NCBI RefSeq assembly: GCF_000381025.1
Contig: NZ_KB905820.1
Location: forward strand, 1 to 64,000
Length of the DNA: 64,000 bases
Source: Streptomyces sulphureus DSM 40104
GTDB taxonomy: Bacteria; Actinomycetota; Actinomycetes; Streptomycetales; Streptomycetaceae
Reading direction: 5' to 3'
The translations under genes were made by a program, and so were the position numbers. The notes under the pieces were generated by a model. The model was not told the origin of the DNA, did no database searches, and saw nothing but the letters and a program-made list of their open reading frames with translations. Below are positions 32,967 through 55,119 of this stretch, one piece after another (position 1 is the stretch's first letter; every line of letters starts with the position of its first letter).

Positions 32967-33039
32967 GCCCTCATCGTCTAGTGGCCCAGGACGCCGCCCT
33001 TTCAAGGCGGTAGCACGGGTTCGAATCCCGTTGGGGGCA
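32967..33039 (+). tRNA. tRNA-Glu (anticodon TTC)
   Basis: 73 nt. Acceptor GCCCTCA pairs with TGGGGGC, anticodon loop CTTTCAA, T arm ACGGG-TTCGAAT-CCCGT. First of three closely spaced tRNA genes. CCA is not encoded. Confidence 0.97.
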
Positions 33040-33086
33040 CGCAGGCGCCTGTGCGAGACTGTTCCTCGCACAGCGTGTGCAAGCTA

Positions 33087-33161
33087 GGTCCTGTGGAGCA
33101 GCTTGGAGTGCTCGCCACCCTGTCAAGGTGGAGGCCGCGGGTTCAAATCCCGTCAGGACCG
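33087..33161 (+). tRNA. tRNA-Asp (anticodon GTC), copy 1
   Basis: Acceptor GGTCCTG pairs with CAGGACC, anticodon loop CTGTCAA, T arm CGGG-TTCAAAT-CCCG. The gene body is identical to the copy at 39301. Discriminator G. Confidence 0.97.
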
Positions 33162-33165
33162 CTGC

Positions 33166-33239
33166 GGCTGGGTAGCTCAGTTGGTACGAGCGTCCGCCTG
33201 AAAAGCGGAAGGTCGCCGGTTCGACCCCGGCCCCAGCCA
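33166..33239 (+). tRNA. tRNA-Phe (anticodon GAA)
   Basis: Acceptor GGCTGGG pairs with CCCAGCC, anticodon loop CTGAAAA, T arm GCCGG-TTCGACC-CCGGC. It begins four bases after tRNA-Asp, so the two must be processed from one transcript. Confidence 0.97.
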
Positions 33240-33259
33240 CCGCAGCCCGCACAGGGCGG

Positions 33260-39300: not shown

Positions 39301-39375
39301 GGTCCTGTGGAGCAGCTTGGAGTGCTCGCCACCCTGTCAAGGTGGAGGCCGCGGGTTCAAATCCCGTCAGGACCG
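39301..39375 (+). tRNA. tRNA-Asp (anticodon GTC), copy 2
   Basis: Identical over the gene body to the copy at 33087. TAGAGT at 39255-39260 is a likely -10 element. Unlike copy 1 it has its own terminator and promoter. Confidence 0.97.
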
Positions 39376-39381
39376 CATCCG

Positions 39382-53227: not shown

Positions 53228-53545
53228 GTGGCACAGCGCGTAGTGGTCACACTCTCCGACGACCTCGAAGGCGGAGACGCGTCGGAAACGGTCGCATTCG
53301 CTCTCGACGGCAAGTCCTACGAGATCGATCTCAACGCCGACAACGCGAAGAAACTGCGTGAAGAGTTGGCACCGTTCGTGGAGGCGGGCCGCAAGCGCGC
53401 CAAGTCGGGCAAGGCGTACCACCGGACGTCGGTCGAGCCCGACGCCCGTGCCGTGCGCGCCTGGGCCGAGTCGAACGGGTACGAGGTACCGGCCCGCGGC
53501 CGCATTCCGAAGCGGATCTACGAGGCGTTCCAGGCAGCGCACTGA
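53228..53545 (+). CDS. lsr2: Nucleoid-associated xenogeneic silencer Lsr2
   Basis: 105 residues from GTG 53228 with GGAAGGA upstream. The N-terminal oligomerisation domain (AQRVVVTLSDDLEGGDASET) and the C-terminal DNA-binding domain with the AT-hook-like RGR of EVPARGRIPKRIYEAFQAA are both present. Lsr2 binds A/T-rich DNA and silences horizontally acquired and secondary-metabolism genes. Longer in-frame sequence upstream has no similarity and includes the promoter region. Confidence 0.97.
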   Translation: MAQRVVVTLSDDLEGGDASETVAFALDGKSYEIDLNADNAKKLREELAPFVEAGRKRAKSGKAYHRTSVEPDARAVRAWAESNGYEVPARGRIPKRIYEAFQAAH

Positions 53546-53693
53546 GACGACCGTCCGGGGCTCCGCCGTCCTCCTCCGCACCGTGGCTCCGGGCGCCGAG
53601 TCGCCGCCGGGAGAACCGACTTGCCACACCCCCCAGGTGATCGGCTAAAGTTCTGAACACGCCGCGAGGGGAAGACACCACCTCCCGGAGCGT

Positions 53694-53765
53694 GCGGGTG
53701 TAGCTCAGTAGTAGAGCGCCCCCTTTCCAAGGGGGAGGCGCAGTGTGCAATCCCTGTCACCCGCT
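53694..53765 (+). tRNA. tRNA-Gly (anticodon TCC) with non-canonical D and T loops
   Basis: 72 nt. Acceptor GCGGGTG pairs with CACCCGC, and the anticodon stem-loop CCCCC-TTTCCAA-GGGGG gives TCC. The D loop is AGTAGTA, lacking the invariant GG found in the neighbouring tRNA-Gly genes (AGTTGGTA). The T arm reads CAGTG-TGCAAT-CCCTG: one stem mismatch, a six-base loop, and no TTC. The D-loop/T-loop elbow contact should be weak. This combination recalls staphylococcal tRNA-Gly species that are not used for translation but for the peptidoglycan cross-bridge. Confidence 0.9.
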
Positions 53766-53835
53766 CTCCTCACTTCTCCCGATCCTTCGGGTAGGGTGAT
53801 GGCCGCGCCACTCGGTGAAAGCCGGGTGGATGCAT

Positions 53836-53908
53836 GCGGACGTAGCTCAGTTGGTAGAGCGCAACCTTGCCAAGGTTGAGGTCGCGAGTTCGAGCCTCGT
53901 CGTCCGCT
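53836..53908 (+). tRNA. tRNA-Gly (anticodon GCC), copy 1
   Basis: Acceptor GCGGACG pairs with CGTCCGC, anticodon loop TTGCCAA, canonical D loop AGTTGGTA and T loop TTCGAGC. Identical to copy 2 at 54093. Confidence 0.97.
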
Positions 53909-53914
53909 CAGGAC

Positions 53915-53946
53915 AGAGGGCCCCGATCCCAGGATCGGGGCCCTCT
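53915..53946 (+). terminator. Terminator of tRNA-Gly(GCC) copy 1
   Basis: AGAGGGCCCCGATCC and GGATCGGGGCCCTCT form a perfect 15-bp stem with a two-base loop (CA), six bases after the tRNA and followed by TCTTTG. Confidence 0.9.
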
Positions 53947-54092
53947 TCTTTGATGCGGGCAGCCTCCCAACTCTCGTTCGTCGGCGCCTTGATGGGCCGG
54001 GCGGGCGTCGGCCACGCCCATGAGTGGCTCGAGGCCGGGGGGACGGAGGCTATACTCGTGGCCGTGCCGCAGCGGGAGATCCGCGACGGCGT

Positions 54093-54165
54093 GCGGACGT
54101 AGCTCAGTTGGTAGAGCGCAACCTTGCCAAGGTTGAGGTCGCGAGTTCGAGCCTCGTCGTCCGCT
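54093..54165 (+). tRNA. tRNA-Gly (anticodon GCC), copy 2
   Basis: An exact duplicate of the copy at 53836, including the immediate 3' flank and terminator stem, 257 bp downstream. The intervening DNA is different, so the duplication covers tRNA plus terminator only. Confidence 0.97.
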
Positions 54166-54172
54166 CAGCACG

Positions 54173-54202
54173 GAGGGCCCCGATCCCAGGATCGGGGCCC
54201 TC
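54173..54202. terminator. Bidirectional terminator of tRNA-Gly copy 2 and purC
   Basis: GAGGGCCCCGATCC and GGATCGGGGCCCTC, a 14-bp stem. It lies between the tRNA (plus strand) and the purC stop (minus strand, 18 bp away), so it can serve both. Confidence 0.85.
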
Positions 54203-54219
54203 TTCTCTGGTGCGCCGAG

Positions 54220-55119
54220 TCAGCTCCAGGCAAGGCCGGTGAGGCGCTCGTACGCCTCCACGTACTTCTGCCGGGTGCGCTCCACCACCCCCGAGGGCAG
54301 CGCAGGCGGCGGCTCCTCGCCGTTCCTGTCCCAGTCGGCGTCCGGCCCGGTGAGCCAGTCGCGCACGTACTGCTTGTCGAAGGAGGGCTGGGGGCGGCCG
54401 GGTTGCCAGGCGTCGCGGGGCCAGAAGCGCGACGAGTCGGGGGTGAGGATCTCGTCGGCGAGGACGAGGGTGTCGCCGTCCCAGCCGAACTCGAACTTCG
54501 TGTCCGCGAGGATGATGCCACGCTCCTCCGCGATCTCCCTCGCCCGCTGGTAGACGGAGAGGGTCGTCTGGCGGAGCAGCGCCGCGGCCTCCGTGCCGGC
54601 CCGGTGGGCGACCTCCTCGTACGTGACGTTCTCGTCGTGCTCGCCCACCTCGGCCTTGGTCGCGGGTGTGAAGAGCGGCCCCGGGAGCTCGGAGCCGTCC
54701 TCCAGCCCGTCCGGCAGGGCGAGGCCGCAGACGGTGCTGGACTCCCTGTACTCCTTGAGCGCCGACCCCGCCAGGTAGCCGCGCGCGACGCACTCGACCG
54801 GGACCATCCGCAACTGCTTGCAGACCATCACCCGGCCCTCCCACTCCTGCGGTGCGCCGGGCGGGAGTTGGGTGGAGAGCACGTGGTGCGGAACGAGGTC
54901 GACGAGCTGCTCGAACCACCACATCGACAGCCGCGTGAGGATGCGCCCCTTGTCGGGGATGCCGCCGGGGAGCACCCAGTCGTATGCGGAGATCCGGTCG
55001 CTGGCGACGATGACCAACTCACCGCGCTCGTTCCGGTAGAGGTCGCGCACTTTGCCCGTGTGCAGGTGCACCAAGCCCGGGACTTCCACGGGCTGCGGCT
55101 TCTCGACGAATCCGGACAC
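54220..55119 (-). CDS. purC: Phosphoribosylaminoimidazole-succinocarboxamide synthase (SAICAR synthetase)
   Basis: 299 residues from GTG 55119 with GGAGGAG upstream. PurC joins CAIR and aspartate with ATP. Signatures: HLHTGKVRDLYRNERGELVI, ASDRISAYDWVLPGGIPDKG, RGYLAGSALKEY, and LADTKFEFGWDGDTLVLADE. The frame continues upstream another 2 kb, antisense-like and low quality, so the GTG is well supported. Confidence 0.98.
   Translation of the reverse strand: MSGFVEKPQPVEVPGLVHLHTGKVRDLYRNERGELVIVASDRISAYDWVLPGGIPDKGRILTRLSMWWFEQLVDLVPHHVLSTQLPPGAPQEWEGRVMVCKQLRMVPVECVARGYLAGSALKEYRESSTVCGLALPDGLEDGSELPGPLFTPATKAEVGEHDENVTYEEVAHRAGTEAAALLRQTTLSVYQRAREIAEERGIILADTKFEFGWDGDTLVLADEILTPDSSRFWPRDAWQPGRPQPSFDKQYVRDWLTGPDADWDRNGEEPPPALPSGVVERTRQKYVEAYERLTGLAWS

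Follow-up and report, generated by a model that had tools for sequence, protein, structure and literature searches.

Within a 64,000-nucleotide stretch of the Streptomyces sulphureus DSM 40104 genome (the window), two ordinary tRNA-Gly(GCC) genes are preceded by a tRNA-Gly(TCC) gene whose D loop and T loop depart from the usual letters. An earlier note, made from the letters of the window, proposed that this variant tRNA may be reserved for, or preferentially used in, cell-wall synthesis. The question raised by the locus is whether the glycine carried by this tRNA is destined for protein or for peptidoglycan. According to passages of PMC4052509, the manner in which aminoacyl-tRNAs are withheld from translation for use in the wall is somewhat unclear in most cases, and a proposed answer exists for Staphylococcus aureus. 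In three tRNA-Gly of that organism, A-U pairs take the place of G49-U65 and G51-C63, the pairs that are strong for EF-Tu, and UU or CU takes the place of GG18-19; with these changes the three tRNAs could avoid translation and be available for the wall (passages of PMC4052509). The wall tRNAs of S. aureus are mentioned in the same sense in parts of PMC9976931 and PMC4810233. No description of such a Streptomyces tRNA was found in the open-licence literature, as covered by titles, abstract openings and selected passages among the matches listed.

The gene at position 53694 is an intact tRNA-Gly(TCC) with changes in both the D loop and the T arm, the latter in loop and stem (Table 1). It scores 54.9 bits with Rfam against a cut-off of 29, and 103.7 bits with the model R1, of which its own sequence is a part. 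The two GCC neighbours, described in the earlier note as canonical, are indeed so and score 70.2 bits each. The identity set of bacterial GlyRS consists of G1-C72, C2-G71, C35-C36 and U73, all of which are present in the variant sequence. In canonical numbering the D loop reads A14-G15-U16-A18-G19-U20-A21. The sequence AGTAGTA, previously said to lack the GG dinucleotide, is present, and the loss is confined to G18, with G19 kept. The T arm reads G49-C50-A51-G52-[U]-G53, followed by the loop U54-G55-C56-A57-A58-U59-C60 and the strand C61-C62-U63-G64-U65. The loop TGCAATC was said to lack TTC; this holds for position 55, which alone is altered (U to G), and fails for the rest of the motif, with U54 and C56 in place along with R57 and A58. 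Judged from these letters, the tertiary contact that is lost is G18-U55.

The T stem consists of five full pairs and one bulged extra base, with which the Rfam alignment agrees, and the single stem mismatch reported earlier is better read in this way. The bulge is preferred because the extra base persists in relatives whose T loop is an ordinary TTCRA, and because in one genome (G445, locus L180) the extra base is shifted by one position with all five pairs intact; a mismatched stem was ruled out on both grounds. An alternative hairpin, GCRC-AGT-GTGC, is favoured by energy folding in some variants. Neither the GGGGCAGTGTGC variants nor the genera g115 and g118 retain it, and it was rejected. 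Minimum-energy folding says little here, since the normal TCC tRNA also gives no cloverleaf by the same folding. A third change, missed in the earlier note, is the weak A-U pair at 51-63, which is G-C in the TCC, CCC and GCC tRNA-Gly of the same genome. The pair 49-65 is G-U in this genome and is still strong.

Table 1. Coordinates of the variant tRNA-Gly(TCC) gene, its parts and its surroundings, as positions of the window.
Feature	Position	Strand	Basis or remark
Lsr2-type gene upstream (context)	53228..53545, start inferred	+	Pfam PF11774, PF23359
-35 TTGCCA of the variant tRNA promoter, inferred	53621..53626	+	TTG at 19-nt spacing among relatives
-10 TAAAGT of the variant tRNA promoter, inferred	53646..53651	+	Comparison of 68 upstream regions
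Conserved 5' leader, ACACGCCG-GAGGGG...	53652..53693	+	Upstream regions compared by eye; leaders of this type also precede some other tRNAs of the genome
Variant tRNA-Gly(TCC)	53694..53766	+	ARAGORN; Rfam RF00005 match 53694-53765, one base shorter
D loop AGTAGTA	53707..53713	+	A at 53710 replaces G18; G19 kept
Anticodon TCC	53726..53728	+	ARAGORN
T arm GCAG[T]G-TGCAATC-CCTGT	53740..53757	+	T at 53744 is the bulged extra base; U55 replaced by G at 53747
tRNA-Gly(GCC), first copy, ordinary	53836..53909	+	ARAGORN, Rfam
Intrinsic terminator-like hairpin 3' of first GCC tRNA	53915..53946	+	1 found in 53500-54300, 0.5 expected
tRNA-Gly(GCC), second copy, identical to first	54093..54166	+	ARAGORN
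purC downstream (context)	54220..55119, start inferred	-	NCBIfam purC

A promoter-like element of the form TTGN / 19 nt / TANNGT lies upstream of the variant gene and its counterparts. Among the 68 upstream regions examined, the -10 forms are TAGAGT (48), TAAAGT (10), TAGTGT (5) and TAATGT (3), with none found in 2, and of the 66 regions in which a -10 was recognised, 65 contain the whole element. A generic promoter scan in which only spacings of 16-18 nt were allowed found no promoter for this gene. The first tRNA-Gly(GCC) is probably co-transcribed with the variant tRNA, since the terminator-like hairpin comes after it. The two GCC genes are identical and near-identical terminator-like hairpins stand behind both (53836-53946 and 54093-54204), as if a duplication or gene conversion had taken place recently. 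By eye, a CGCCGAGGGG-like stretch soon after the start region is common to the leaders of the gene at 53694 and of tRNA-Gln (L068), tRNA-Arg (L007) and tRNA-Ala (L015), and may be a leader or processing element that they share.

The earlier note had asked for a canonical TCC tRNA in the rest of the genome, and one was found (G000:C9:47905-47975). The two share the anticodon, U73, the acceptor ends and the general cloverleaf; unlike the variant, the canonical tRNA has a normal GG, a TTCGA loop, a G51-C63 pair and no bulge. Among the 49 distinct tRNA sequences called by ARAGORN in the window and at the other tRNA loci retrieved from this genome, the GTTCRA motif of the T loop is missing only from the variant tRNA. 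One Leu tRNA in this set has no GG in a crude D-loop window, yet its T loop is normal. The tRNA list of the genome may be incomplete, as the assembly has 26 contigs and one N run inside a tRNA array. This run, in a Gly-Cys-Val array (L062, G000:C1:354300-355200), cuts tRNA-Val(GAC) genes and is an assembly gap.

Conservation of the altered loops across the genus was examined with a 161-base query, which by BLAST matches 150 of 150 genomes, the one under study included. The query matched once only in its own genome at E ≤ 0.001, so that the matches in the genus are not due to ordinary Gly tRNAs. From 67 of these genomes, which were read (the other 83 were matched by BLAST alone), 68 loci yielded 80 copies and 31 distinct sequences; every copy has both loops altered and the extra base in place, and thus 67 of 67 genomes read have these features. 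Two or three intact copies stand at 8 of the 68 loci. Across the 31 distinct sequences and 21 pairs, 99.8% of the 651 cells are paired, both partners have changed in five of the pairs, and no slid register does as well as the true one; the count of further pair types, 8, does not exceed that of the shuffles, which average 9.2. The pairs of the T stem are invariant, and the loops, including the anticodon loop, are nearly fixed. A normal TCC tRNA was found in 146 of the 150 genomes by a pattern from which even the normal sequence departs at two positions, and which gave no match in G047, G050, G092 and G105. ARAGORN made no call for the variant tRNA at 13 of the 30 loci L031-L060, although the gene is present there, and annotation that relies on this program may omit it. 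Two genomes of the genus carry plasmid pieces identical to Streptomyces records.

The model of the variant tRNA, built from the 31 sequences, gives 97-104 bits on variant tRNAs and 54-66 bits on normal Gly tRNAs. Applied to 296 genomes of the class under stricter filters (16 candidates scored per genome, so that weaker forms may escape), it detected the variant in 28 of 28 genomes of the genus and in 0 of 268 outside it. A pattern search of the class genomes had the same outcome, plus one chance match inside a genome of the genus. A looser T-arm pattern with up to three mismatches matched 46 of the 296 class genomes; the listed matches outside the genus all had three mismatches and were judged to be chance, and the backwards control likewise matched some genomes. 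In the family, the variant tRNA is present in 90 of 121 genomes: 68 were obtained by pattern, and of the remaining 53 the model added 7 of 12 and 15 of 41, the latter scan scoring 121 candidates per genome under the same kind of stricter filters, which weaker forms may escape. It is lacking from all 27 genomes of genus g127, from all 3 of g124, and from G462; G451, of the same genus as G462, has it, and the absence in G462 is a loss or a gap. In G462, three tandem tRNA-Val(GAC) genes occur at L247:1095-1390, and the acceptor end of the middle one differs yet is paired (gcgcgat/atcgcgc vs ggacgat/atcgtcc).

Genus g127 is named Kitasatospora from one plasmid piece, 15 kb of which match a Kitasatospora fiedleri record without a difference; other g127 pieces show resemblance, but no identity, to Kitasatospora and Streptomyces records. 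Two g127 genomes searched at a low threshold contain TCC, CCC, two GCC and one more match with the score of a GCC tRNA, and nothing that replaces the variant. With normal Gly tRNAs only in these two genomes, protein synthesis can do without the variant tRNA. Genus g118 is Embleya-like (one piece is 82.9% identical over 70% to Embleya), and g120 includes 'Streptomyces sp. SN-593'.

The tRNA occurs in the family in two grades. Column counts were made on 61 of the 62 distinct family sequences, all of 72 nt, with the 71-nt sequence from L219 left out. The anticodon loop TTCCA (33-37), A37 included, and the A51-U63 pair are present in 61 of 61, A49-U65 occurs in 7 of 61, and the column of G18 holds A in 56 and G in 5. 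The g115 and Embleya-like g118 form shares the bulge and A51-U63 with the variant tRNA; it differs in that G18, G19 and U55 of a TTCRA loop are kept and in an A3-U70 pair. Over the 62 distinct sequences, in a tally that did not take in loci L243-L323 or those from L339 upward, A18 is combined with G55 in 57 and G18 with U55 in 5, with no mixed form. In a 48-row tree of FemX, a supported group (99/96) unites g115 with g118 and stands beside all other rows of the family (100/97). The change of 18 together with 55 is not repeated evidence of coupling, since one event suffices on this tree. The genera lacking the variant tRNA, Kitasatospora and g124, fall together with weak support (90/62), and one or two losses are possible. 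The order of events seems to have been that the bulged weak T stem is older, that the loop changed once, and that the tRNA was later lost in the Kitasatospora lineage.

The T-loop change was compared with that of the staphylococci in a scan of 84,980 species, with one genome per species, for unbulged tRNA-Gly(TCC)-like DNA containing R52-G53-U54-G55-C56-R57-A58. The staphylococcal T loop U-G-C-R-A was known beforehand and guided the search pattern, and its letters were then found in the matches. The scan gave 32 stretches, of which 28 belong to Staphylococcus or Mammaliicoccus and the other 4 contain no tRNA by ARAGORN; the same program confirmed tRNA-Gly(TCC) in all 4 of the 28 staphylococcal stretches that were tried. 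In 36 distinct staphylococcal sequences, A51-U63 and A49-U65 are each found in 35, and no G at 18-19, no bulge, and C or T at 37 are found in all. The staphylococcal wall tRNA-Gly(UCC), which is linked to FemX/FemA/FemB, has in common with the variant tRNA the anticodon, the acceptor determinants, the loss of G18 and an A-U pair at 51-63. The U-G-C-R-A loop is also common to both, by construction of the search pattern. Both kinds are extra to the normal isoacceptor set and stand in tandem copies in some genomes.

The earlier claim that the two loops carry the same changes as in staphylococci is borne out for the T loop; for the D loop it is not, as G18 alone is changed rather than both G. The variant tRNA has AG in place of UU or CU, its T stem is bulged, A37 is kept, and its pair 49-65 is G-U in this genome where 35 of the 36 staphylococcal sequences have A-U. 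By analogy, it looks as if the variant tRNA works like the staphylococcal kind, yet by these features it is not strictly a member of that class. Convergence appears likelier than common descent, since the phyla differ and the variant tRNA is known here within one actinomycete family.

A candidate for the FemX-type enzyme named in the earlier note is encoded in the genome. The only gene of the FemAB family (G000:C8:197372-198487) is on the same contig as the window and is FemX-like, and the best solved relative of its product is S. aureus FemX (6snr, E 3.8e-30). The protein scores 158 with Pfam FemAB against a cut-off of 24, and 101 with the NCBIfam FemX equivalog, below the cut-off of 500. A neighbouring gene is alanine-racemase-like, with 41 against an NCBIfam cut-off of 218 and thus below it. 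FemX and VanK of S. coelicolor are named, in passages of PMC4052509, as users of aminoacyl-tRNA in reactions on wall precursors; these passages name enzymes and no particular tRNA species for them, and the genome under study has one gene of the family. Of the 121 family genomes, 120 have a FemX homologue, and these include the genomes that lack the variant tRNA. No match was obtained in G457, an assembly of about 410 contigs in which the variant tRNA is present. Many family genomes have two to four FemX-like matches among the matches listed.

A FemX-like gene without the variant tRNA occurs in 27 of 27 genomes of g127, in 3 of 3 of g124 and in 103 of the 268 class genomes outside the genus. 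The proposal that the tRNA is reserved for the wall, in the sense of a need, is not supported by these counts from the Kitasatospora genus and the wider class, and FemX as a strict partner was rejected as a requirement. The wall of Kitasatospora contains meso-DAP (passages of PMC6113628). That the tRNA was lost there because such a wall has no glycine is not supported by the DAP(Gly), glycine on DAP, of K. viridifaciens mycelium (Table 1 of PMC8092295). K. viridifaciens is one species with a glycine bridge, and the absence of the tRNA is known from the g127 genomes rather than from that species. Given this DAP(Gly) and the many genomes with FemX alone, FemX can probably work without the variant tRNA.

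The most likely reading, at about even odds, is a tRNA that is handicapped toward EF-Tu and that feeds FemX preferentially in most of the family, as a helper rather than a necessity. GlyRS would charge the tRNA, to go by its kept G1-C72, C2-G71, C35, C36 and U73, and the conserved promoter-like region suggests that it is expressed. The bulge between 52 and 53, the weak A-U pair at 51-63 and the changes of G18 to A and U55 to G would make it a poor partner for EF-Tu and the ribosome. Its glycyl form would stay free as the preferred glycine donor for FemX, which would then attach one glycine residue to DAP in the precursor of the wall. The tRNA would act as a buffer against competition with translation, the bridge being possible without it. 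This reading is favoured most by the fixed T arm, by the second, normal TCC tRNA, and by a rare loop that is otherwise staphylococcal only in the scan of 84,980 species; that two genomes of the Kitasatospora genus lack the tRNA makes it dispensable for decoding and counts for the wall role. The same role is weakened by the occurrence of FemX in genomes without the tRNA and by the invariant anticodon loop, A37 included. With TTCCA unchanged in 61 of 61 sequences and G19 and C56 kept, decoding may not have been given up. The tRNA could then be a structurally variant but translating reader of GGA, perhaps slow or conditional, in which the changes at 18/55 and in the T stem are tolerated drift fixed in one family. 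This we consider rather unlikely. Also consistent with it are the retention of U54, A58 and the G-U pair 49-65, the formation of all cloverleaf pairs and the two adjoining ordinary Gly tRNAs; against it stand the separate normal TCC tRNA in 146 of 150 genomes and the two genomes examined of the lineage that lacks the variant, in which the normal Gly tRNAs are of the same kinds. Drift also leaves unexplained a fixed extra base, A51-U63 and loop amid changing stems, and the match to the staphylococcal loop.

A non-translating tRNA might instead serve a user of glycyl-tRNA other than FemX, such as another FemAB-type transferase, an aminoacyl-lipid enzyme, or regulation by the tRNA or its fragments. 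FemX elsewhere does not need the variant tRNA, two to four FemX-like matches are found in many family genomes among the matches listed, and passages of PMC12945691 describe Gly-tRNA-dependent FemAB-like enzymes of natural product synthesis in Streptomyces, DhpK and BD-12 Orf11. We nevertheless regard a different user as unlikely: the only FemAB gene of the genome under study is the FemX-like one, and the tRNA is genus-wide whereas natural product clusters are sporadic in occurrence. A decaying pseudogene, left by tandem duplication in the Gly cluster, is highly improbable. The unusual T arm, an Rfam score below that of the neighbours and the silence of ARAGORN at 13 of 30 loci (L031-L060) would fit decay, but constraint is not relaxed and pairs are not broken: the same altered features recur in 67 of 67 genomes, 2-3 intact copies stand at 8 of 68 loci, stem changes are compensatory and the promoter-like region is conserved. 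Pseudogene status was therefore rejected.

Returning to a tRNA that preferentially supplies FemX, we propose, tentatively and with slightly less than even confidence, that the Streptomyces family evolved a wall-dedicated tRNA-Gly independently of the staphylococci. The bulged, EF-Tu-weak stem would have come first, as kept in the Embleya-like genera, and the U-G-C-R-A loop later; the lineage that includes Kitasatospora would have dropped the tRNA, with FemX there competing for ordinary glycyl-tRNA. The bulge in the T stem would represent a novel type of anti-determinant for EF-Tu. With Streptomyces, a genus that is easy to work with, having the variant tRNA throughout, Kitasatospora lacking it and an Embleya-like form half-way, the question of how aminoacyl-tRNAs are withheld from translation becomes testable.

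In S. coelicolor, DasR is reported at a cluster of tRNA-Glu/Asp/Phe genes and at a gene for tRNA-Gly that lies upstream of SCO3679 (passages of PMC4398421). Control of the variant tRNA by DasR was considered and rejected; no link was found, and neither was any dre-like site above chance within the window. A tRNA-Glu/Asp/Phe cluster is located at 32967-33241 of the window. tRNA-Asp(GTC) occurs twice in the window, at 33087-33162 within this cluster and at 39301-39376 alone.
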